Source of the DNA: an uncultured Oscillospiraceae bacterium
GTDB taxonomy: Bacteria; Bacillota; Clostridia; Oscillospirales; Oscillospiraceae
Direction of reading: 5' to 3'
Length of the DNA: 32,345 bases
Assembly: GCA_944385675.1 (NCBI GenBank)
Contig: CALWYD010000074.1
Span: forward strand, 1 to 32,345
A model generated the notes under the pieces. It worked only from the letters and a program-made list of their open reading frames with translations. It did no database searches and had not been told where the DNA came from. The position numbers and the translations under genes were made by a program. Positions 2,590 to 20,698 of this stretch are shown piece after piece; the stretch's first letter is position 1; the number at the start of each line of letters is the position of its first letter.

Positions 2590-3378
2590 ATGCTCCTTGC
2601 CATTGACATCGGAAATACCAACATTGTCATCGGCGGTATCCGGGACGGGAAAATTGTGTTTGAAGCCCGGGTAGCCACCGACCATATCAAAACCTCTGAC
2701 CAATACGGGGTGGACATTAAGAATATCCTCTCCCTCTTCCATACCAAGCCGGAGGATATCCGAGACTGCATTATCTCCTCTGTGGTTCCTCCGGTGTTCA
2801 ACTCGGTGCGTACCGGTGTCATGAAGGTGATTCGCAAGCCTCCCATGGTAGTGGGGCCTGGAATCAGAACTGGATTAAACATTCAAATGGATACGCCCTC
2901 TCAGGTGGGCAGTGACCGCATTGTTATTGCCGTGGCTGCTCTGGCAGAATATAAGCCCCCATTGGCCCTGGTAGACATGGGGACGGCCACGACCATTGAA
3001 GTGGTGGGCAAGGGCAGTACGTACCTGGGGGGGTGTATTATCCCCGGTGTCCGGGTATCTCTGGAGGCGCTGACCTCCAAAACCGCCCAGCTGCCCGGCA
3101 TTCAGCTGGACAGGCCCCGGCGAGTCATTGGCAAGAACACAGTGGACTGCATGCGCAGCGGCATTATGTACGGAACCGCCGCTATGTTGGATGGAATGCT
3201 GGACCGGGTGGAAGAGGAGCTGGGCTGCTCCACCACTGTGGTCGCCACCGGGGGGATGGCCCAGTTTATTATCCCTCTGTGCCGAAGAAAAATCATCTTG
3301 GAGAAGGATTTACTCCTGAAGGGACTATATGTTTTGTACCAGAAAAATGTCCAGGAGCGACGGAAAGGAGAGGGATGA
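2590..3378 (+). CDS. coaX: Type III pantothenate kinase
   Basis: Phosphorylates pantothenate, the first committed step of coenzyme A synthesis, using the ASKHA fold. The 262-residue protein begins with the family motif DIGNTN (residues 5-10). It carries the QVGSDR segment that binds substrate, the second phosphate loop VDMGTATT and the later TGG loop (ATGGMAQF). Length and motif order are standard. It shares a transcript with the ECF S-component gene just upstream and uses a GAGGTG ribosome binding site. Unlike CoaA, type III kinases are not feedback-inhibited by CoA, so control may rest on transport and transcription. A GC hairpin (3361-3390) spans the stop codon but has no U-tract. Confidence 0.96.
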   Translation: MLLAIDIGNTNIVIGGIRDGKIVFEARVATDHIKTSDQYGVDIKNILSLFHTKPEDIRDCIISSVVPPVFNSVRTGVMKVIRKPPMVVGPGIRTGLNIQMDTPSQVGSDRIVIAVAALAEYKPPLALVDMGTATTIEVVGKGSTYLGGCIIPGVRVSLEALTSKTAQLPGIQLDRPRRVIGKNTVDCMRSGIMYGTAAMLDGMLDRVEEELGCSTTVVATGGMAQFIIPLCRRKIILEKDLLLKGLYVLYQKNVQERRKGEG

Positions 3379-3400
3379 GCCCCCTTTCCGGTGGAATCCC

Positions 3401-3429
3401 TTGACATAGTCTGAGAGATTTCGTATAAT
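3401..3429 (+). promoter_or_regulatory. Sigma-A promoter of the valS T-box transcript
   Basis: A perfect TTGACA (3401-3406) and perfect TATAAT (3424-3429) with a 17-base spacer. Transcription should start around 3436, immediately before the T-box leader, so this is a strong, constitutive-looking promoter whose output is decided downstream by tRNA-dependent termination. Confidence 0.9.
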
Positions 3430-3435
3430 ACTACC

Positions 3436-3710
3436 TACAAAGTCGGTCTTGCGGGAACGGCTTGTGCCACAGGCAATGCGGAAGAGGAGTATCCGGTGCA
3501 CGGCGGCTGCAGAGAGGGGACGGATGGTGTAAGTTCCTCCCCGGCCCGGAGAAGTGCCTTCCAAGCTCTGCCCCTGAACCTGCGCATAGTAGGGGGCGGC
3601 GGTGCCCGCCGTTATTGGGAAAAGAGTGTGGGCAAAAACGCCCAAATTCAGGTGGTACCGCGGACTTGTTCCAGTTCGCCCTGAGCCAGACGGCTCAGGG
3701 CGTTTTTTAT
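3436..3710 (+). promoter_or_regulatory. T-box leader (tRNA-Val sensing) with terminator, upstream of valS
   Basis: The hallmark T-box sequence GGTGGTACCGCGG lies at 3651-3663. Stem I elements precede it: an AGTA loop-E strand (3488-3491) within GAGGAGTA, an AGAGA bulge near 3511, and a GTGTAAGTT segment in which GTT (3533-3535), a valine codon, sits just before CCTCC that can pair with the earlier GGAGG-like strand. I infer this as the specifier. The TGGT of the T-box matches an acceptor end with discriminator A, as in tRNA-Val. The competing terminator is an 11-bp perfect stem (CGCCCTGAGCC, 3677-3687, with 3692-3702) followed by six T. Uncharged tRNA-Val should promote readthrough into valS. 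Confidence 0.93.
3677..3708 (+). terminator. T-box attenuator terminator
   Basis: Eleven perfect base pairs (3677-3687 with 3692-3702), loop AGAC, then TTTTTT at 3703-3708. It is the OFF state of the T-box leader before valS. Confidence 0.92.
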
Positions 3711-3770
3711 TGCTTCTGCGGTTTCCCTGTTGGAAGTAAGATTAATTTTTACAGATAGGAGAAAACACAT

Positions 3771-6401
3771 ATGGGTATTGAACTGCCAAAGGTCTACGAG
3801 CCTCAGGAGGCGGAGGGCCGCATTTATGAGAAGTGGGAAAAGGCGGGCTGTTTCCGGGGCGTCCGAGATCCTGAGAAGAAGCCCTTCACCATCGTGATGC
3901 CGCCTCCCAATGTAACGGGGCAGTTACACATGGGTCACGCCATGGATTGCGCCCTTCAGGACATCCTCATCCGCTTCAAGCGCATGCAGGGCTATGCCGC
4001 TTTGTGGGTACCCGGCACGGACCACGCGGGCATTGCCACTCAGATTAAGGTGGAGGAGGAGCTGCGGGTCAATGAAGGGCTGACCCGGTATGATCTGGGG
4101 CGGGAAAAATTTCTGGAACGGGTGTGGGACTGGAAAAACAAATACGGAAACCGTATTGTGGCCCAGCAGAAGAAGATGGGGGCATCCTGTGACTGGGAGC
4201 GCTCCCGCTTTACCATGGACGAAGGCTGCTCCAAGGCAGTGCGGGAGGTCTTTGTCAATCTGTATGAGAAGGGCCTTATCTATAAGGGGAGCCGCATCAT
4301 TAACTGGTGTCCCCACTGCGTCACCGCTCTGTCCGACGCAGAGGTAGAGTACCAGGATAAGCCGGGCTTTTTCTGGCATATCCGCTATCCCATCCAGGGA
4401 GAGGAGGGCCGGTATGTCATCGTGGCCACCACTCGTCCCGAAACCATGCTGGGTGACACCGGCGTGGCCGTCCACCCGGATGACGAGCGGTACAAGGACA
4501 TTGTAGGTAAGAAGTGCATTCTGCCTCTGGTGGGTCGTGAGATGCCTATTGTAGCCGATGAATATGTGGACATGGAGTTCGGCACTGGCTGCGTAAAAAT
4601 GACTCCTGCCCACGACCCCAATGACTTTGAGGTGGGTCTGCGCCAGAATCTGGAGACCATCCGGGTACTGGATGACAACGGCCGCGTGGTGGAGGGCTAT
4701 GGAAAGTACTCCGGAATGGACCGTTACGAGGCCAGGAAGGCCATTGTGGCTGATCTGGAGGAGCAGGGCTATTTGGTCAAGGTGGAACCTCACCAGCACA
4801 ACGTGGGCACCTGCTACCGCTGCCACAATGACGTGGAGCCACTTATCTCTGCCCAGTGGTTCGTGAAGATGAAGCCTCTGGCCCAGGAGGCCCTGCGGGT
4901 GGTCAACGAGGGTGAGGTTAAATTTGTCCCCGATCGCTTTGCCAAAACGTATACCAACTGGATGGAGAACGTCCATGATTGGTGTATCTCCCGCCAGCTA
5001 TGGTGGGGCCACCAAATTCCCGTGTGGTACTGTGATGACTGTGGACACATGACGGTCAGCCGTGAGGACGCGGTGGAATGTGAGAAGTGCCACTCCAAAA
5101 ACATCCACCGGGATCCCGACGTGCTGGACACCTGGTTCTCCTCCACTCTCTGGCCCTTCTCTACCCTGGGCTGGCCGGATAAAACGGAAGATTTGGATTA
5201 TTTCTACCCCACCGATGTGTTGGTCACTGGGTACGACATTATCTTTTTCTGGGTTGCCCGGATGATTTTCTCCGCCTGCCAGCAGACGAAAAAGCCTCCC
5301 TTTCACACGGTGTTTATCCACGGCCTGGTGCGGGATGACAAGGGACGCAAGATGTCCAAGAGCCTGGGCAACGGCATTGATCCCCTGGAAATTGCAGAAA
5401 AGTACGGCGCTGATGCCCTGCGCTTTAACCTGGTCACCGGCAACTCGCCCGGCAATGATATGCGCTTTTACACCGAGCGGTGTGAGGCTATGCGCAACTT
5501 TGCCAACAAAATCTGGAATGCCAGCCGTTTCCTCATGATGAATCTAACCATCGACAAATGTCAGCTGCCAGAGAAGCTGGAGCTGGAGGACAAGTGGATT
5601 TTGTCCAAGCTCAACCGGGTCATCCCTGAGGTTACGGAGAATATGGACAAGTATGAGCTGGGTGTGGCAGCTCAGAAGATCTATGACTTCATCTGGGACG
5701 ACTACTGCGACTGGTATATTGAGTTGACCAAGACCCGTCTGCAGGGGGAGGACCAGGACAGCAAAGTCCGGGCTCAGCAGGTACTGTGCTATGTACTCAC
5801 CAACATGCTCAAGCTGCTGCATCCCTTTATGCCCTTTATTACTGAGGAAATCTGGCAGGCACTGCCCCATGAGGGGGACTTCCTCATGCTCTCCCACTGG
5901 CCCAAGGCATGTCCGGAACTGTCCTTCCCCCAGGAAGAACGGGCTATGGAAATGATTATGGATGCCATCCGGGCAGTGCGTACCCGTCGCAGTGAAATGA
6001 ATGTTCCTCCTTCCAAAAAGGCCCATCTCACTGTAGCTACAGATGAGGAGCAGGTCTTTACGCTGGGTGTCCCATTCCTGAAGAAGCTGGGCTACGCCAG
6101 CGATGTGGACGTTGTTCCTGCCGCCCAGGCCCCCTCTGCAATGGGAATGGTGGCAGTGGTCACCCATGCCGCCCAGATGTTTATCCCGCTGGGCGAACTG
6201 GTAGATTTGGCTAAGGAGAAAGCGCGCTTAGAGAAAGAGTTGAAGAAGAATTCCGAGGAGCTTCAGAAGCTGACTACCAAGCTGAATAATCCCGGCTTTG
6301 TAAACAAGGCCCCCGCCAACGTGGTGGAGGCTGAGCGGGAGCGTTCGGTCAAATTGGCTGAACTGGTGGCCAAGCTGGAGGAACAGCTGCGGGGAATGTA
6401 A
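3771..6401 (+). CDS. valS: Valine-tRNA ligase
   Basis: Class Ia synthetase that charges tRNA-Val and edits mischarged threonine. The 876 residues are full length. The HIGH signature appears as HMGH (residues 53-56) after PPPNVTGQ, and KMSKS appears at about 527-531 ([10 protein letters not shown]). The CP1 editing region carries [11 protein letters not shown], and the C-terminal end is a lysine/glutamate-rich coiled coil (about 810-876) typical of ValRS. GAGTTCGTGACGC-type frameshifts or breaks are not seen. The ATG at 3771 follows TAGGAGAAAACACAT. It is expressed from the T-box leader immediately upstream, which independently supports the valine identity. Confidence 0.98.
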
Positions 6402-6547: not shown

Positions 6548-7561
6548 ATGACGCCAATTGAACTGGGGAAAACTGGTATCATTATTGAGAAAAATGGATT
6601 TGGATGCCTGCCCATCCAACGTATTTCAAAGAAGGATGCTGCCTATCTGCTGCGTAAAGCGGCGGATGGGGGAATAACTTACTTTGACACCGCCCGCGCC
6701 TATACGGACAGCGAAGAAAAGCTGGGGCTGGCCTTTGAGGGAATGCGGGATAAAGTGGTGATTGCCACCAAGAGCCAGGCCCAAACAGGGACACAGATGC
6801 TGGAGCATCTGGAGACCAGCCTTCGTAACCTGCGCACCGACTATGTGGATATCTTTCAATTCCATAATCCCTCCTTCTGTCCAAAGCCAGGCGGAGACGA
6901 CGGACTGTATGACGCAGCCCTGAAGGCGCAGGCCCAGGGGAAAATTCGCTTTATTGCCATTACCAACCACCGCCTGTCTGTGGCCCAGGAGGCGATTGAC
7001 TCCGGCCTGTACGTCTCCCTGCAATTTCCGTTTAGCTATTTGTCCGGCGACCATGAGATGAAACTGGTAGAGGGCTGCCGTAAGGCAGGTATGGGCTTTA
7101 TTGCCATGAAGGGTCTGGCCGGTGGGCTGATTCATAACGGCCGGGTAGCGGCAGCTTTTATGGCGGGGCAGCCCGATGTGGTTCCTGTCTGGGGAGTGCA
7201 GCATGAATGGGAGTTGGACGAGTTCCTGGAGTGCGTAAAAAACCCGCCGGAACTGACGATGGAATATCAAGCCATCATTGCAAAGGATAAGAGGGAACTG
7301 GCCGGAGATTTCTGCCGTGGCTGCGGCTACTGTATGCCCTGCCCCGTGGGGATAGAAATCAACGACTGCGCCCGCATGTCTCTGATGCTCCGCCGGGCGC
7401 CTACGGCCGGGTGGCTCAGCCCGGAGAACCAGGCCAAGATGGAGAAGATCAAAGACTGCCGCCATTGCGGTCAGTGTAAGTCCAAGTGCCCCTATGGCCT
7501 GGATACCCCCCGTCTGCTGGAGCAGAATTACTTAGATTACCAGACCTTCCTAAAGAAATAA
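6548..7561 (+). CDS. Aldo/keto reductase with C-terminal ferredoxin-type 4Fe-4S domain
   Basis: A 337-residue fusion. Residues 1 to about 245 form the aldo-keto reductase barrel. Its usual catalytic tetrad is visible: Asp and Tyr in FDTARAY, Lys in VVIATKS and His in FQFHN. The C-terminal 90 residues hold two clusters in the form CX2CX2CX3C: CRGCGYCMPCP and CRHCGQCKSKCP, the second followed by a YGLDTP tail. This arrangement is common in anaerobic Clostridia and is thought to couple NAD(P)H chemistry with electron transfer, but the substrate is unknown. It stands alone between its own promoter and terminator. The ATG at 6548 follows GGGAGGG at good spacing. Confidence 0.9.
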   Translation: MTPIELGKTGIIIEKNGFGCLPIQRISKKDAAYLLRKAADGGITYFDTARAYTDSEEKLGLAFEGMRDKVVIATKSQAQTGTQMLEHLETSLRNLRTDYVDIFQFHNPSFCPKPGGDDGLYDAALKAQAQGKIRFIAITNHRLSVAQEAIDSGLYVSLQFPFSYLSGDHEMKLVEGCRKAGMGFIAMKGLAGGLIHNGRVAAAFMAGQPDVVPVWGVQHEWELDEFLECVKNPPELTMEYQAIIAKDKRELAGDFCRGCGYCMPCPVGIEINDCARMSLMLRRAPTAGWLSPENQAKMEKIKDCRHCGQCKSKCPYGLDTPRLLEQNYLDYQTFLKK

Positions 7562-7567
7562 ACGTTT

Positions 7568-7600
7568 CGGCGCTGCGGCGATAGCCGCAGCGCCGCTTTC
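7568..7600 (+). terminator. Terminator after the aldo-keto reductase gene
   Basis: CGGCGCTGCGG (7568-7578) pairs perfectly with CCGCAGCGCCG (7585-7595), 11 bp with a 6-base loop, followed by a short CTTTC tail. The weak U-tract lowers certainty. Confidence 0.65.
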
Positions 7601-7611
7601 AGTTCAGCCGG

Positions 7612-7640
7612 TTGACAAGCAGTGGGAAGTTAGGTACAAT
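7612..7640 (+). promoter_or_regulatory. Sigma-A promoter driving the cobalamin riboswitch transcript
   Basis: A perfect TTGACA (7612-7617) and TACAAT (7635-7640) with a 17-base spacer. The transcript would start near 7647, directly ahead of the riboswitch. Confidence 0.85.
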
Positions 7641-7654
7641 TTTCCTACAGACCA

Positions 7655-7880
7655 ATAGCTTCCCAAGTGTCCCCGGGGGCGTGCGGCCCACGGGGGAGAA
7701 TAGGAAACCGGGTGAAATTCCCGGACGGGACCGCCGCTGTAAGTGCGTGGTGTTCCTCCCACAGGCGAAAGCCGGCCATTGGGGAAACCTGAGAAGGCGG
7801 GAGGGACGGGAGCGGAAGAAGCTGCTCTGGCGCGTAAGTCAGAAGACCTGCTTGGGAAGGGTGTGCCCGAGCCTCCGGGA
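7655..7880 (+). promoter_or_regulatory. Cobalamin (B12) riboswitch
   Basis: The conserved cobalamin aptamer core is readable. AAACCGGGTGAAATTCCCGG (near 7706-7725) is followed by GGGACCGCCGCTGTAAGTGCG (near 7727-7747). The B12-box-like AGTCAGAAGACCTGC lies at 7837-7851. The order and spacing match the classic P3-P6 core and the closing strand. The aptamer sits between a sigma-A promoter and an intrinsic terminator at 7921-7963, so cobalamin binding should reduce expression of the gene at 8024. Aptamer borders are approximate. Confidence 0.93.
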
Positions 7881-7920
7881 TAGGGGCGGTATGGTGCAGC
7901 CAAAGGAAGCGCGGAAACAG

Positions 7921-7963
7921 GCCGCGGCGGCGTTTTGTGCCGCCGGGGCTTTTGTTGTGTTTT
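7921..7963 (+). terminator. Riboswitch-controlled intrinsic terminator
   Basis: GCCGCGGCGGC (7921-7931) pairs with GCCGCCGGGGC (7939-7949), ten pairs with one mismatch, then a T-rich tail (TTTTGTTGTGTTTT). It lies between the aptamer and the start codon, making it the probable expression platform. The remaining 60 bases to the gene hold only its ribosome binding site. Confidence 0.8.
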
Positions 7964-8023
7964 ACGCCCGGCGGTTGCCAGCGGGAGAGGCGCAATGCGC
8001 CGGGAAAGGAAGATGTGTGTTTG

Positions 8024-11000
8024 ATGAGGAACGTAAAAAATCGGGGGCTGAGCCTGCTGCTGGTCCTGGTACTGCTGCTGGGTTTGCTGCCCGGGGCGGC
8101 TCGGGCGGCGGAGGAGGGGGTGACCATCACCTTCCTGGCCTCCTCCAGCGTGGAGGGCTTCTATGTGCCCCGAAGGGAGCTGAAGGTGCTGCCCGGCACG
8201 GCCCAGCAGTACGGATATGTCAACGGGGCTGAAGTGGCACACGGCCAAGTGACTCTCTTGGACGCGCTGGTGCAGGCCCACGTGGACAAGTACGGCCAGG
8301 CCTTTACTCAGGCGGAGGACAGCGTCCGGCGGAGCTACTTGGACATCTCAGACAGCGGATTTGTCCAGACTGCCTTTGGGAACACGGATGCGTCCTACAG
8401 TATCCAGCTGGTCAACGGAGGACCCCTGGGCAACGCCACGGTGGCCACGGCGGTGCTGCGGGAGGGGGACGTGGTGGAGAACCTCTATCCCGATCCGGAC
8501 TCCTACGGCATGGATACCTACGCCTACTTTTCCTATGAGAGCAGCCCCGTCACAGAGCTGACTGTAGTGGAGAACACGCCGGTCACCCTGGCCCTCATGG
8601 GGGACATGGCCTACAAAAAGACTATGCCCTCCTACTACGGCACATACGAGCCCCAGGTGCTGTCGGTGGAGGGGGGGACGGTGTTCCCCGTCCTGGCGGA
8701 CGGCAGCCTGGGCGCGGCGGGGGAGCAGGTCATCGAAGCGGACGGAACCGTGACCTTTACCCTGCCTCAGGGGGAGTATACCTTCACGGTTCAGGGAATA
8801 GATGAGGAGACCTACTGCTTCATTACCTGTCCCTGGATTACCCTCCACGTAGTGGCGGAGGATGGGCAGGATCGCCGGGCGGACAACCTGGCCGCCAACC
8901 TGACCTGGGAGGTTATCCGGGGGGAGAACCTGCGCATGGACGGGGTGACCTCCAATCTGGTGCTGCCCGCCAGCTTCATGGGGGAGAGCCTGACCTGGAG
9001 CTGTGACGACCAGAGCGGGGCCCTGTCCATCTATGGGGAGACGGGCTATGTCTCCATGCCCCTGTCCCAGGATGTCCCGGTGGTGCTGACGGCTTCCATG
9101 GACGGCGGCACGCCGGTGAAGACCTTCCCCCTCACCGTCAAGGCGGAGGGGGTCACCGACGACAAGGCGGGGGTGACCAGCTACGCCGGGCTGATGGCGG
9201 GCATCGCCCAAAATTACACGGACTATGACGTCTACACCAGCGCCATGGAGACCAACGACCTGCCCTGGATTGCCATGGATCTGGTGGCCTGCGGCGGGCT
9301 GTCCCTCAGCGGGGACTCCGGGGAACTGACCACCTATTACCAGAGCAGAAATCTGGGCGAGGCGAAGTATGTCCTGGCCGAACTGGCCCGGGGCGGGGAA
9401 GTGACGGCGGAGGCCGAGGCCCTGAAAGGGCAGGACCTAGGGGCCTATTACATCTACAGTGCGCCCTATGTGCTCCTGGCCCTGGATGGGGCGAGGGTGG
9501 AGGACAGCGCCCTGGAGGGGGCGGTGAACACCCGGCAGAACCTGGTGGAGCGCATTGCCTCCTACCTCACCGACCCTGCCAGCTATCTCTCCGCCGATGT
9601 GGTGGGGCCAGCCCTGGCTGCTCTGGCGGCATATCAAACCGATGCGTATCCCCAGGCCAGGGCGGCGGTGGAGGCGGGCGTGGCCTGGCTGTCCCGGAAC
9701 CAGAGGACGGACGGCAGCTGGGACGGCAACGCGGAGGCTACGGCCATGGCCATCGTGGGCCTGTCCGCCCTGGGCATCGACGCCCACACTGACAGCCGCT
9801 TTATCAAGGACGGGACCAGCGGGGTGGAGGGCCTGCTGTCCTTCGCCCTGGCGGACAACTCCGGCTTCGGCCACATGGGCAACGTGACCTATAACGCCAT
9901 GGCCACCGAGCAGGGCTTTCGGGCCCTGGTGGCCTATGCCCGCATGCAGGAGGGCGGCGCGCCCTATAACATCTACCTCCTGGCCGGGGACAGCCAGGGG
10001 ACCGTGATCGCTCCTGATATTACCGCCACGGTGACACCCGGAGATGGTGACTCCGGGGAGGAGGACAAAGATGACGGCGGCATCACTGTACCTACGGTGC
10101 GGGTGACCGTCTCCGTCATGGTGCCCCCGGAAGGGGGGGCTGAGGGCCAGTATACCTATCGATATGATTCTGCCCTGTACTCCAACCTCCTGGGCTCAGC
10201 CCAAACGCAGACAGTTCCCCTGGGAACCACAGCCCAGTCCGTACTTACCAGCGCGCTGAGTGAGGCGGGGATCTCCTACCGGCAGTCAGGGGGATACTTT
10301 ACCGCCATCGGCGGCCTGGAGGAGGGAGACCACGGGCCCAACTCCGGTTGGCAGTACCTAGTCAACGGCACCGCGCCTCTGGAGTCCGCTTCTACCTATA
10401 CATTCTTTAGCAACGCCACCCTGGTCTGGTACTACACCGATGATTACACCCGGGAGGAGAGCGCCGAGTCCTGGGAGAGCGGCGGGGAAAAGGAGGAGAA
10501 GCCAGAGGCGGATAAAGAGGTTCAGATCACTTCCACAGGGGACGGCGCCTATCGGGTGACTCTGCCCCAGGACAGTACCGGTCCCCTCCTTGTCGCCATC
10601 CCGGACGTGGGCCGGGGCGACGTGGTGGTAACGGTGGGCGCCGACGGCGTGGAGAAGCCGGTGAAGAAGTCCGCTGTCCTCAATGGAACTGCTTACCTGT
10701 TGTTGGAGGAGGATGCCAAGGTCAAAGTTGTGGACTATGCCGGCGGCTTTGCGGATGTGGCCGGGGACGCCTGGTATGCCGGGGCGGTTGATTTTGTGGC
10801 CGGGCGGGGGCTGTTCTCCGGCGTGGGCGGAGCATACTTTGCACCCCATGATACGCTCAACCGGGGCATGGTGGTCACCGTGCTGTACGCCCTGGAGGAC
10901 GGGGCGGCGCAGAATGCCCAGACCCTGTTTGCCGATGTGGCCCAGGATGCCTGGTATGCCTGGGGAACGGCCTGGGCCGTGGAGGCCGGTATTGTCTCCG

Positions 11001-11296
11001 GGTATGGGGACGGGCGGTTCGGTCCGGAGGACGCCGTCACCCGGGAGCAGTTGGCCCTGATGCTGTACCGCTACGCTCAGAATCTGGGAAAGGAGCCCCA
11101 GGACGACGGAGCTCTGGAGAACTTCCAGGACAGCGCAGAGATTTCCGCCTGGGCCGTCCCGGCCATGTCCTGGGCGGTGGGCGTCGGTATTCTCAGCGGA
11201 GGAACCGACGGCTGCCTGAACCCCGGCGGCAGCGCCACCCGGGCGGAGGCCGCCGCCATGGTGCGGCAGTTTGTGAGCTGGATGCTTCAAAACTGA
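8024..11296 (+). CDS. Secreted, S-layer-anchored protein with intrinsic-factor-like domains; probable cell-surface B12-binding protein
   Basis: A 1090-residue exported protein. A signal peptide ends near residue 28 (PGAARA). Residues about 30-180 form a first beta-rich region resembling DUF4430 (LVNGGPL, EGDVVE). About 290-375 is an aBig-type Ig-like domain. About 385-650 is alpha-helical with terpenoid-cyclase/prenyltransferase-like repeats (GVAWLSRNQRTDGSW, ATAMAIVGLSALG). About 690-810 is a DUF4430/transcobalamin C-terminal-like domain (GGYFTAIGG, SGWQYLVNG). Three S-layer homology repeats (about 908-960, 968-1022 and 1033-1090) would attach it to the cell wall. An alpha-barrel followed by this beta domain is the architecture of animal intrinsic factor and transcobalamin. 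With a cobalamin riboswitch upstream, B12 or corrinoid capture is a strong inference, not proven. ATG 8024 is chosen for its ribosome binding site and signal peptide; TTG 8021 is possible. Confidence 0.88.
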   Translation: MRNVKNRGLSLLLVLVLLLGLLPGAARAAEEGVTITFLASSSVEGFYVPRRELKVLPGTAQQYGYVNGAEVAHGQVTLLDALVQAHVDKYGQAFTQAEDSVRRSYLDISDSGFVQTAFGNTDASYSIQLVNGGPLGNATVATAVLREGDVVENLYPDPDSYGMDTYAYFSYESSPVTELTVVENTPVTLALMGDMAYKKTMPSYYGTYEPQVLSVEGGTVFPVLADGSLGAAGEQVIEADGTVTFTLPQGEYTFTVQGIDEETYCFITCPWITLHVVAEDGQDRRADNLAANLTWEVIRGENLRMDGVTSNLVLPASFMGESLTWSCDDQSGALSIYGETGYVSMPLSQDVPVVLTASMDGGTPVKTFPLTVKAEGVTDDKAGVTSYAGLMAGIAQNYTDYDVYTSAMETNDLPWIAMDLVACGGLSLSGDSGELTTYYQSRNLGEAKYVLAELARGGEVTAEAEALKGQDLGAYYIYSAPYVLLALDGARVEDSALEGAVNTRQNLVERIASYLTDPASYLSADVVGPALAALAAYQTDAYPQARAAVEAGVAWLSRNQRTDGSWDGNAEATAMAIVGLSALGIDAHTDSRFIKDGTSGVEGLLSFALADNSGFGHMGNVTYNAMATEQGFRALVAYARMQEGGAPYNIYLLAGDSQGTVIAPDITATVTPGDGDSGEEDKDDGGITVPTVRVTVSVMVPPEGGAEGQYTYRYDSALYSNLLGSAQTQTVPLGTTAQSVLTSALSEAGISYRQSGGYFTAIGGLEEGDHGPNSGWQYLVNGTAPLESASTYTFFSNATLVWYYTDDYTREESAESWESGGEKEEKPEADKEVQITSTGDGAYRVTLPQDSTGPLLVAIPDVGRGDVVVTVGADGVEKPVKKSAVLNGTAYLLLEEDAKVKVVDYAGGFADVAGDAWYAGAVDFVAGRGLFSGVGGAYFAPHDTLNRGMVVTVLYALEDGAAQNAQTLFADVAQDAWYAWGTAWAVEAGIVSGYGDGRFGPEDAVTREQLALMLYRYAQNLGKEPQDDGALENFQDSAEISAWAVPAMSWAVGVGILSGGTDGCLNPGGSATRAEAAAMVRQFVSWMLQN

Positions 11297-19303: not shown

Positions 19304-20698
19304 TTACAGAACAGGGTTTTCCGCGTCTTTATCTGAATCTGAAGTCTGATGGGAGTCCGGTGGTATGAGCGGATCGTCGTGTTCCATTGGTTCAAAATAA
19401 TCCTGATCCTGCAGTACGGGCTTGCGTCGGCGGGCGATGGCAATAATGCAGGGATATAGGACAACCGCCACAAGACCACCGGAAAAGCCGTTATTATACA
19501 GATTCATGCCGGCGACGGGGGTTCCGGTGTAAAGGACCACGGAGGCATGTAGAAAACCTGCCAGAACTCCATAAGGCCACCCAAAATGGCCGGAAATAGG
19601 GGCCAGTGTCGTACAGAACAGGCAGGCTAACTGTACGGCGGGGTTGTCCAGAGACCAGTGCATCACAAGGCCTCCCAGGGCTACCCCCATCATAGGGGGC
19701 AGGATGTTTAGCGCGTGTTTACCGAAAGCAGAAAAGCCGATGATAGTGAAAATGCCGCCTATGGTAGGGCCATTCAGGTCTCCGCCCACGGCCAGGATAA
19801 AAGCGGTGCCAATCAGACCGTTAATACCTGCGTTAATGAGGACAGGAGCCGGGCCAAACATGCGCAGATAGTCACTGGGAGCCCGACCGCTGGTGCGAAG
19901 CAGCCAGCGGTAGCCGGCCCAGGCGGCCCACACCGGTTTCCTGCACAAAAACAGGCCGGATACAAGCAGCAAAAGGCATAAGGTCAGCAGCATAGGGAGA
20001 AAAAGCCAGTTATAACCCACAGCCCAGCGGTAGTGGGTGGTAGGGTCGGCACCCAGCGAACCCATTAACGGGACACAGATAAAGGCTACAAGGCCGCAGG
20101 CAAAGCCCACGTTGTAAAGGTTCATGCCGTTTTGAATGCGGTAGGTATAGGCGGCCAGGGGAGGAAGGAGAAAGCCGATGACCAAGCCAATAAAAGCGCC
20201 GGCCAGCGGGTTGCCCCAGCCGTTTTCCAGGGAAATATAGCTGATGACAGGGGCCAGGGCGGTGGACATCAGACCGATGTTTACATAGGAAGAAAAGGGC
20301 TCTTTGCGGTATCTGGCGTACAGCCATGTCCCCAGTAGAATGGGCCAGATATTTACAAAGTTCTTCCCAAACAGGGAGAAGCCGGACATAAGTCCCACCA
20401 CCACCAGAGTCATGCCGTTTAGCACATCCCGGGATAAATAGAGCACGCACAAGGTAATGGCAGTGACTAGGGCGGAATTTACCAAGGCCGCCCCAGGGCC
20501 GGCCAGCATCACGTAGTCTGTGATCAGGGCGTCTTCAGTCAGGACAATGGTCTCCAGTCCCTTTAAGATGGCCTGAGGGCTGTCCGACAGGAAGCCGGCC
20601 AGTGCCAAAACCAGGGTGTAGATCCACAGCAGGGGAAACATCTTGTTGTAACGAATATGGGGATGCTGGAGCAGATGGGGAAACGGCGGTTGGCCCAT
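19304..20698 (-). CDS. DUF1576 integral membrane protein with internal duplication
   Basis: A 464-residue polytopic membrane protein with roughly ten or more hydrophobic segments and a charged cytosolic-looking tail (HDDPLIPPDSHQTSDSD). The function of DUF1576 is unknown. The two halves repeat. GFSLFGKNFVNIWPILLG in the first half matches GFSAFGKHALNILPPMMG in the second, and GMNLYNVGFACGLVA matches GMNLYNNGFSGGLVA. A duplicated core with short signature loops is typical of channels or secondary transporters, so a transport role is plausible. ATG 20698 follows AAAGGAAGG. It starts 36 bases after the ribF stop with no terminator between, so it is probably the last gene of that operon. Confidence 0.85.
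   Translation of the reverse strand: MGQPPFPHLLQHPHIRYNKMFPLLWIYTLVLALAGFLSDSPQAILKGLETIVLTEDALITDYVMLAGPGAALVNSALVTAITLCVLYLSRDVLNGMTLVVVGLMSGFSLFGKNFVNIWPILLGTWLYARYRKEPFSSYVNIGLMSTALAPVISYISLENGWGNPLAGAFIGLVIGFLLPPLAAYTYRIQNGMNLYNVGFACGLVAFICVPLMGSLGADPTTHYRWAVGYNWLFLPMLLTLCLLLLVSGLFLCRKPVWAAWAGYRWLLRTSGRAPSDYLRMFGPAPVLINAGINGLIGTAFILAVGGDLNGPTIGGIFTIIGFSAFGKHALNILPPMMGVALGGLVMHWSLDNPAVQLACLFCTTLAPISGHFGWPYGVLAGFLHASVVLYTGTPVAGMNLYNNGFSGGLVAVVLYPCIIAIARRRKPVLQDQDYFEPMEHDDPLIPPDSHQTSDSDKDAENPVL

Follow-up and report, generated by a model that had tools for sequence, protein, structure and literature searches.

What does a cobalamin riboswitch control when the gene behind it encodes a predicted surface protein and no transporter lies beside it? 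The question is raised by a stretch of 32,345 nucleotides (nt) from an uncultured Oscillospiraceae bacterium (assembly GCA_944385675.1, contig CALWYD010000074.1, positions 1-32,345, forward strand), which was analysed at its full length and is called the window here. A reading made from these letters alone (the sequence-only reading) had compared the product with animal intrinsic factor and proposed surface capture of vitamin B12, perhaps by a stand-alone scavenging or storage device. At a probability of roughly three in four, we read the gene as encoding a wall-anchored corrinoid catcher that belongs to a Gram-positive B12 uptake regulon and acts by the steps proposed below.

The gene lies on the plus strand at 8024..11296. 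The listed open reading frame (ORF), 7937-11296, opens with GTG, and its likely true start is the ATG at 8024, preceded by AAAGGAAG; from there the product has 1,090 amino acids (aa). Upstream, at 7648..7869 on the same strand, is a cobalamin riboswitch aptamer (RF00174, 88.2 bits against a gathering score of 31.5, E 1e-20). Residues 1-28 (8024..8107) probably form a signal peptide, judged by eye from a hydrophobic stretch and an AxA site. An alpha/alpha toroid domain occupies residues 385-659 (9176..10000) and is followed by a DUF4430 or transcobalamin-C-like beta-grasp domain at 10097..10459 (core 10223-10438). PF14478 matches residues 734-805 with 47.6 bits against a cut-off of 23.8 (E 2.4e-12), which places the protein in the DUF4430 family. 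Three S-layer homology (SLH) repeats follow at 10736..11287 (PF00395, E 1.6e-26, in three stretches, with matches to structures of the S-layer protein Sap); together with the signal peptide they give the sequence profile of an SLH surface protein, and anchoring is predicted from them.

The toroid was recognised by sub-threshold Pfam matches to squalene-cyclase families and by a toroid-only profile compared with the Protein Data Bank (PDB). This profile (A4) rests on an alignment of 46 segments, namely the window and 45 members from homologous loci, and it matches squalene-hopene cyclase at 5e-15, which argues that the alpha-helical barrel-like region is real. Across the toroid-DUF4430 segment the window protein is 55% identical to L086 and 53% to L085, and 26-35% to the remaining 43 members; all 46 match DUF4430 (E <=0.01). 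The protein thus has the order found in intrinsic factor and transcobalamin, toroid first and transcobalamin-C-like beta-grasp second. The fold class and the alpha-then-beta order are established, and a closer relationship to intrinsic factor in particular is no more than suggested. Conserved features include an SGW..Y.VNG loop in DUF4430 and an Asp in the toroid (position 141 of A2). The riboswitch, the barrel-like region, the DUF4430 domain, the three repeats and the domain order had all been named in the sequence-only reading, and each was borne out.

Linkage of such genes to cobalamin riboswitches extends well beyond the window. From the Genome Taxonomy Database (GTDB) genome collection 80 homologous loci were taken (80 of 82 were kept at the initial selection), and counts use the 48 with a profile match of at least 300 positions and more than 100 bits, the other 32 having been excluded beforehand. 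SLH repeats are on the same frame as the toroid and DUF4430 in 44 of the 48. Of the 48 loci, 34 have a cobalamin riboswitch ahead of the open frame on its strand (23/29, 4/10 and 7/9 by scan batch), at a distance of up to about 1.2 kb and for the most part no more than 0.5 kb; among them are Bacillus sp. EAC (L141), Anaerovorax (L103), Urinicoccus (L146) and Ndiopella (L126). L101 was scored as a hit, its riboswitch lying 1.2 kb upstream, beyond another frame in which its N-terminal region is encoded; L128, with a riboswitch 2.7 kb upstream, was scored as a miss. Eight of the 14 misses have a frame that begins less than 400 bases from the locus edge (L099, L100, L104, L112, L115, L116, L122, L123), and five (L097, L107, L119, L121, L145) have room upstream, yet no riboswitch over threshold was found there.

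The same pairing, which the sequence-only reading had offered as a check in related genomes, recurs in a survey of 61 family genomes, including the one that contains the window. DUF4430 hits are present in 43 of these genomes and cobalamin riboswitches, counted at E <=0.001, in 46. The counts take in all 79 DUF4430 rows and 103 riboswitch rows, which are hits and not genes; some riboswitch rows are under the gathering score, and strict search filters lose weak riboswitches. With pairing defined as a riboswitch at most 7 kb upstream of a DUF4430 hit on the same strand, 31 of the 79 DUF4430 hits are paired, where a rough estimate gives about 0.3 expected, and 27 of the 103 riboswitches sit in this position. 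The two surveys overlap (e.g., G087:C34 with L089 and G044:C26 with L091), and the counts from one are not independent of those from the other. When the full-length window protein was compared with 120 family genomes, the matches were dominated by SLH repeats and served only to locate places to read. A second layout was seen in nine of the 61 genomes (L083, from G010:C8; L084, from G018:C35; G001, G004, G005, G008, G021, G034 and G049): a short DUF4430 frame (137-200 aa) has its match beginning about 0.3-0.5 kb past the cobalamin riboswitch match, two of these riboswitch matches being below the gathering score.

A transporter is found elsewhere in the host genome, where DUF4430 and the cobalamin riboswitch were each found twice, paired at both sites: in the window and on another contig (C13). 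On C13 the riboswitch heads an operon that encodes, in order, a toroid protein, a DUF4430 protein, an EcfT-like protein and a CbiO-CbiO-EcfS fusion. The toroid protein (322 aa, with a probable signal peptide by eye) was assigned from sub-threshold Pfam matches and from close relatives in other operons that match the window's toroid. The DUF4430 protein (270 aa) appears by eye to have an N-terminal hydrophobic anchor, and the fusion (916 aa) contains two ABC_tran stretches and a match to the S-component of energy-coupling factor (ECF) transporters. Neither of these two split proteins, toroid or DUF4430, found a useful PDB match when searched as a single sequence. By contrast, a profile of 20 S-component sequences found chain A of 6FNP at 1.5e-19, with the next best match at 0.011, and a profile of 16 EcfT sequences found solved EcfT structures, 6FNP included, at 3.9e-19; no Pfam or NCBIfam model matched the single C13 EcfT sequence. 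6FNP is ECF-CbrT, the vitamin B12 transporter of Lactobacillus delbrueckii (PMC5997447). The C13 operon therefore has the parts of a CbrT-type B12 ECF transporter: a CbrT-homologous S-component, two ATPases and an EcfT. It differs from ECF-CbrT in that its S-component is fused to the two CbiO ATPases and accompanied by extracellular toroid and DUF4430 proteins.

In other Firmicutes the two parts are often contiguous. ECF genes were sought within 8 kb on the same strand at the 34 loci having at least 6 kb downstream, and they were found downstream in 20 of these, in 19 of them contiguously. The typical contiguous order is the fused SLH gene, a toroid or toroid-SLH gene, a small DUF4430 gene, EcfT and CbiO-CbiO-EcfS. 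At L146 EcfT is preceded by a separate riboswitch of its own, at L145 the ECF genes are located upstream instead, and at L101, L110 and L141 the fused frame has a second toroid match, no toroid gene having been called apart from it. These neighbourhoods bear on the proposal of a stand-alone storage device or decoy, which would keep corrinoid on the surface for later or to starve competitors and would make no hand-off. The sequence-only reading was right that no transporter adjoins the gene in the window, and the fetched stretches of L085, L086 and L094 likewise show no EcfT or EcfS gene; but the genome also contains, behind its other cobalamin riboswitch, a CbrT-type ECF operon, and in 19 of the 34 loci the gene leads such an operon, which makes this proposal improbable. 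Of surface B12 capture as first proposed, the B12 role is thus retained on the strength of riboswitch and ECF context, and the stand-alone part is not supported.

Capture of B12 by the window protein is well supported by this context, and a sequence of steps can be proposed. At low B12, transcription would pass the riboswitch terminator, as the leader and what is known of cobalamin riboswitches suggest. The secreted protein would use its SLH repeats to dock to the cell wall, and a corrinoid would be held between the alpha/alpha toroid and the DUF4430 beta-grasp, as it is in intrinsic factor and transcobalamin; domain order and context point to this arrangement. The catcher would then raise the local B12 concentration for the C13 membrane stage or pass B12 to it, and the ECF system encoded there (toroid protein, anchored DUF4430 protein, EcfT and CbiO-CbiO-EcfS) would import the corrinoid. 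The host genome has one hit to PF04230, the family of the wall-polymer pyruvyl transferase CsaB, and this accords with docking of the SLH repeats to a pyruvylated wall polymer.

The B12 economy of the host is in keeping with a need for uptake. Its genome encodes two B12-type radical SAM proteins and a MetH-type methionine synthase (TIGR02082, 473 bits on a 753-aa piece that is clipped by the fetched stretch, below the full-length cut-off of this model). There are two TP-methylase hits, one of the CobA/CysG type that is shared with siroheme synthesis and one an RsmI encoded in the window, and CobS had no match in the assembly, which is 87% complete. B12-using proteins, too few methylases for B12 synthesis and no CobS fit a B12 auxotroph, within that degree of completeness. 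The ligand could instead be a corrinoid other than complete B12, such as cobinamide or another cobamide, so that the protein would not be a general B12 catcher. A range of ligands is stressed by Burroughs et al. (PMC1796856), and CbrT also imports cobinamide (PMC5997447); the present data give no discrimination among corrinoids, and we regard this narrower role as unlikely.

Several observations weigh against a catcher working ahead of an ECF transporter. Within the window the gene has no linked transporter, 14 of the 34 loci with room show no downstream ECF genes, and for 48 of the 79 DUF4430 hits in the family no riboswitch is present inside 7 kb upstream. The incompleteness of the host assembly counts on the same side. 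The host genome also contains three FecCD-type permeases away from the riboswitches; the two that were examined score below cut-off on BtuC models, and a second B12 route is therefore possible. The FecCD-type ABC transporters whose permeases give these BtuC scores are at G000:C17 (L174:5672-8362) and G000:C86 (L175:11702-13757), and the two cobalamin riboswitches found are on other contigs.

The remaining points on this side concern the kinship to intrinsic factor. The toroid-only profile ranks alpha-2-macroglobulin (0.025) and complement C3d (0.03) above gastric intrinsic factor (0.06). With the two-domain profile intrinsic factor is found at about 0.07 (0.06-0.075 across profiles) and transcobalamin-2 at 0.16-0.5, and the top PDB match of the DUF4430-only profile is transcobalamin-2, at a non-significant 0.27 beside an unrelated structure at 0.33. 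PF01122, the animal cobalamin-binding toroid, matches 12 of the 46 aligned members at E <=0.01 (best 4.6e-5), but it does not match the window protein, which is not placed in that family by the curated cut-off. Among 20 members scanned singly one (L105) matched it at E <=0.1, with 15.7 bits against a cut-off of 25. A PF01122 search of the 61 family genomes gave zero matches, and since its control also matched nowhere, this result neither proves nor disproves toroid kinship. Finally, extra domains were matched among the 46 members (PEGA in 10, FIVAR in 5, Big_3 in 4), and in those members whose positions were inspected the extra domain sits between the toroid and DUF4430, so that one ligand need not in every case be gripped by both halves. 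That the toroid is instead an enzyme of the squalene-hopene cyclase/prenyltransferase type or a thioester-type adhesive domain, its link to the riboswitch being incidental, accords with the cyclases as best toroid matches (5e-15) and with the complement and alpha-2-macroglobulin toroids that outrank intrinsic factor, but it is very improbable, because residues 385-659 by eye contain neither the acid motif DxDD nor the thioester motif CGEQ, and because a riboswitch lies directly upstream in 34 of 48 loci.

The leader of the gene begins with a sigma-70-type promoter-like site, TTGACA-17-TACAAT, at 7612..7640 on the plus strand (11 of 12 consensus matches; one found versus a mean of 0.1 in shuffles). 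Position 7612, at which the sequence-only reading had begun its feature, is hence in the -35 box and belongs to no codon of the gene. The intrinsic terminator of that reading corresponds to a terminator-like hairpin followed by a U-rich stretch on the plus strand, at about 7919..7951 on folding (core stem 7925-7945, T-rich tail). This region folds only moderately better than shuffled sequence (z -2.0, 9 of 200 shuffles as good), and the longer leader, 7848-8040, is unremarkable (z -1.3, 20 of 200). The corresponding leaders of three homologous loci, L085 (Pseudoflavonifractor phocaeensis An901), L086 (a chicken metagenome-assembled genome, MAG) and L094 (Flavonifractor sp. An100), contain a comparable hairpin in that position, with z of -5.7, -7.1 and -3.8 and none of 200 shuffles as good in each case; the window's hairpin is the weakest of the four. 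In the leaders of L089 and L091 the same script gave no such stem. The inverted repeat CGCGG..CCGCG at 7910..7926 (plus strand; the same repeat is listed on the minus strand) may form an antiterminator hairpin, which would be exclusive with the terminator-like hairpin and so could compete with it.

Residues of about 30-384 of the window protein were absent from the sequence-only description. They comprise an N-terminal region (residues 30-210, 8111..8653, plus strand) that has no Pfam match and resembles the N-terminus of L085 and others, and an Ig-like, aBig_2-like stretch (8933..9145, plus strand) that is sub-threshold for PF20578, with 26.2 bits against a cut-off of 27. In some relatives the N-terminus holds a second, diverged DUF4430-type domain, recognised when a profile (A3) was run on nine proteins: at 110-212 of the open frame in L086 (44.8 bits), 45-156 in L089 (37.6 bits), 56-186 in L107 (24.0 bits) and 42-171 in L105 (22.9 bits), with a weak score of 8.8 bits for the N-terminus of L094. 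The N-terminal region of the window protein was considered as such a domain and rejected (score -3.6), and none was detected in L085, L099 or L116. In L101 the N-terminal region is on its own open frame (1695-2849), ahead of the toroid-DUF4430 frame (2876-5761), which indicates that the gene is split or interrupted in that MAG.

Other elements of the window lie to either side of the gene. A T-box leader at 3467-3686 (105.7 bits) precedes an 876-aa ORF (3771-6401), and a T-box is upstream at the matching place also in L085 and L094. An aldo/keto-reductase-like gene at 6548-7561 is directly followed by a strong terminator-like hairpin of 12 pairs (7568-7595), which would separate it from the riboswitch gene. 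A DUF1576 protein (1.7e-95) is encoded at 19304-20698.

Proteins of this kind have been predicted before. Burroughs et al. (2007; PMC1796856) described in Gram-positive bacteria a toroid fused to transcobalamin-like SLBB domains, predicted a role in B12 scavenging, and noted operons in which CbiO genes, CbiQ-like genes and another SLBB protein occur; such organisms usually lack key enzymes of B12 synthesis, and transfer to animals was proposed. The genes described here share with that clade the toroid and transcobalamin-C-like beta-grasp, secretion, surface-tethering domains and CbiO/CbiQ-like operons. Beyond it, they have three SLH repeats, a cobalamin riboswitch, a CbrT-type S-component, a split toroid and DUF4430 pair in the partner operon, and, in the window, a gene detached from its transporter; a text search of PMC1796856 found no riboswitch, S-layer or SLH. 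A literature search over titles and abstract openings, in a collection with no preprints and few subscription papers, gave among the matches listed no experiments on the binding of corrinoids to a protein of this type, and DUF4430 is mentioned in proteomics papers (e.g., PMC9963975, PMC9801417). Thus the kind of protein had already been predicted in print, and the arrangement of S-layer repeats, riboswitch and CbrT-type transporter is an extension.

Two other B12-binding systems invite comparison. With animal intrinsic factor, transcobalamin and haptocorrin the window protein shares the alpha/alpha toroid followed by a transcobalamin-C-like beta-grasp; unlike them, it bears SLH repeats, is longer and has the N-terminal and Ig-like regions, it matches them weakly in sequence (E 0.06 or worse), and its binding of B12 is predicted. 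With BtuG of Bacteroides it would share the job of surface B12 capture ahead of a transporter, whereas BtuG is a surface-associated beta-propeller, a different fold, that partners BtuB (PMC6977713). More tentatively, the Firmicutes set might form a two-stage relay, in which a single-chain intrinsic-factor-like protein on the S-layer would deliver to a membrane-level intrinsic factor made of two chains (a toroid that is secreted or SLH-bound and a DUF4430 protein tethered to the membrane) and this in turn to a CbrT-type ECF transporter, all under cobalamin riboswitches; this set might also be the source of animal intrinsic factor and transcobalamin. We hold this wider picture to be possible and well short of probable.

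What the locus means for its host follows from the nearer proposal, that of a wall-anchored corrinoid catcher. Bacteroides use BtuG-type surface proteins, and B12 capture outside the membrane is little known in Gram-positive gut bacteria; here, the gene product most probably serves a B12 uptake system as its outer catcher.

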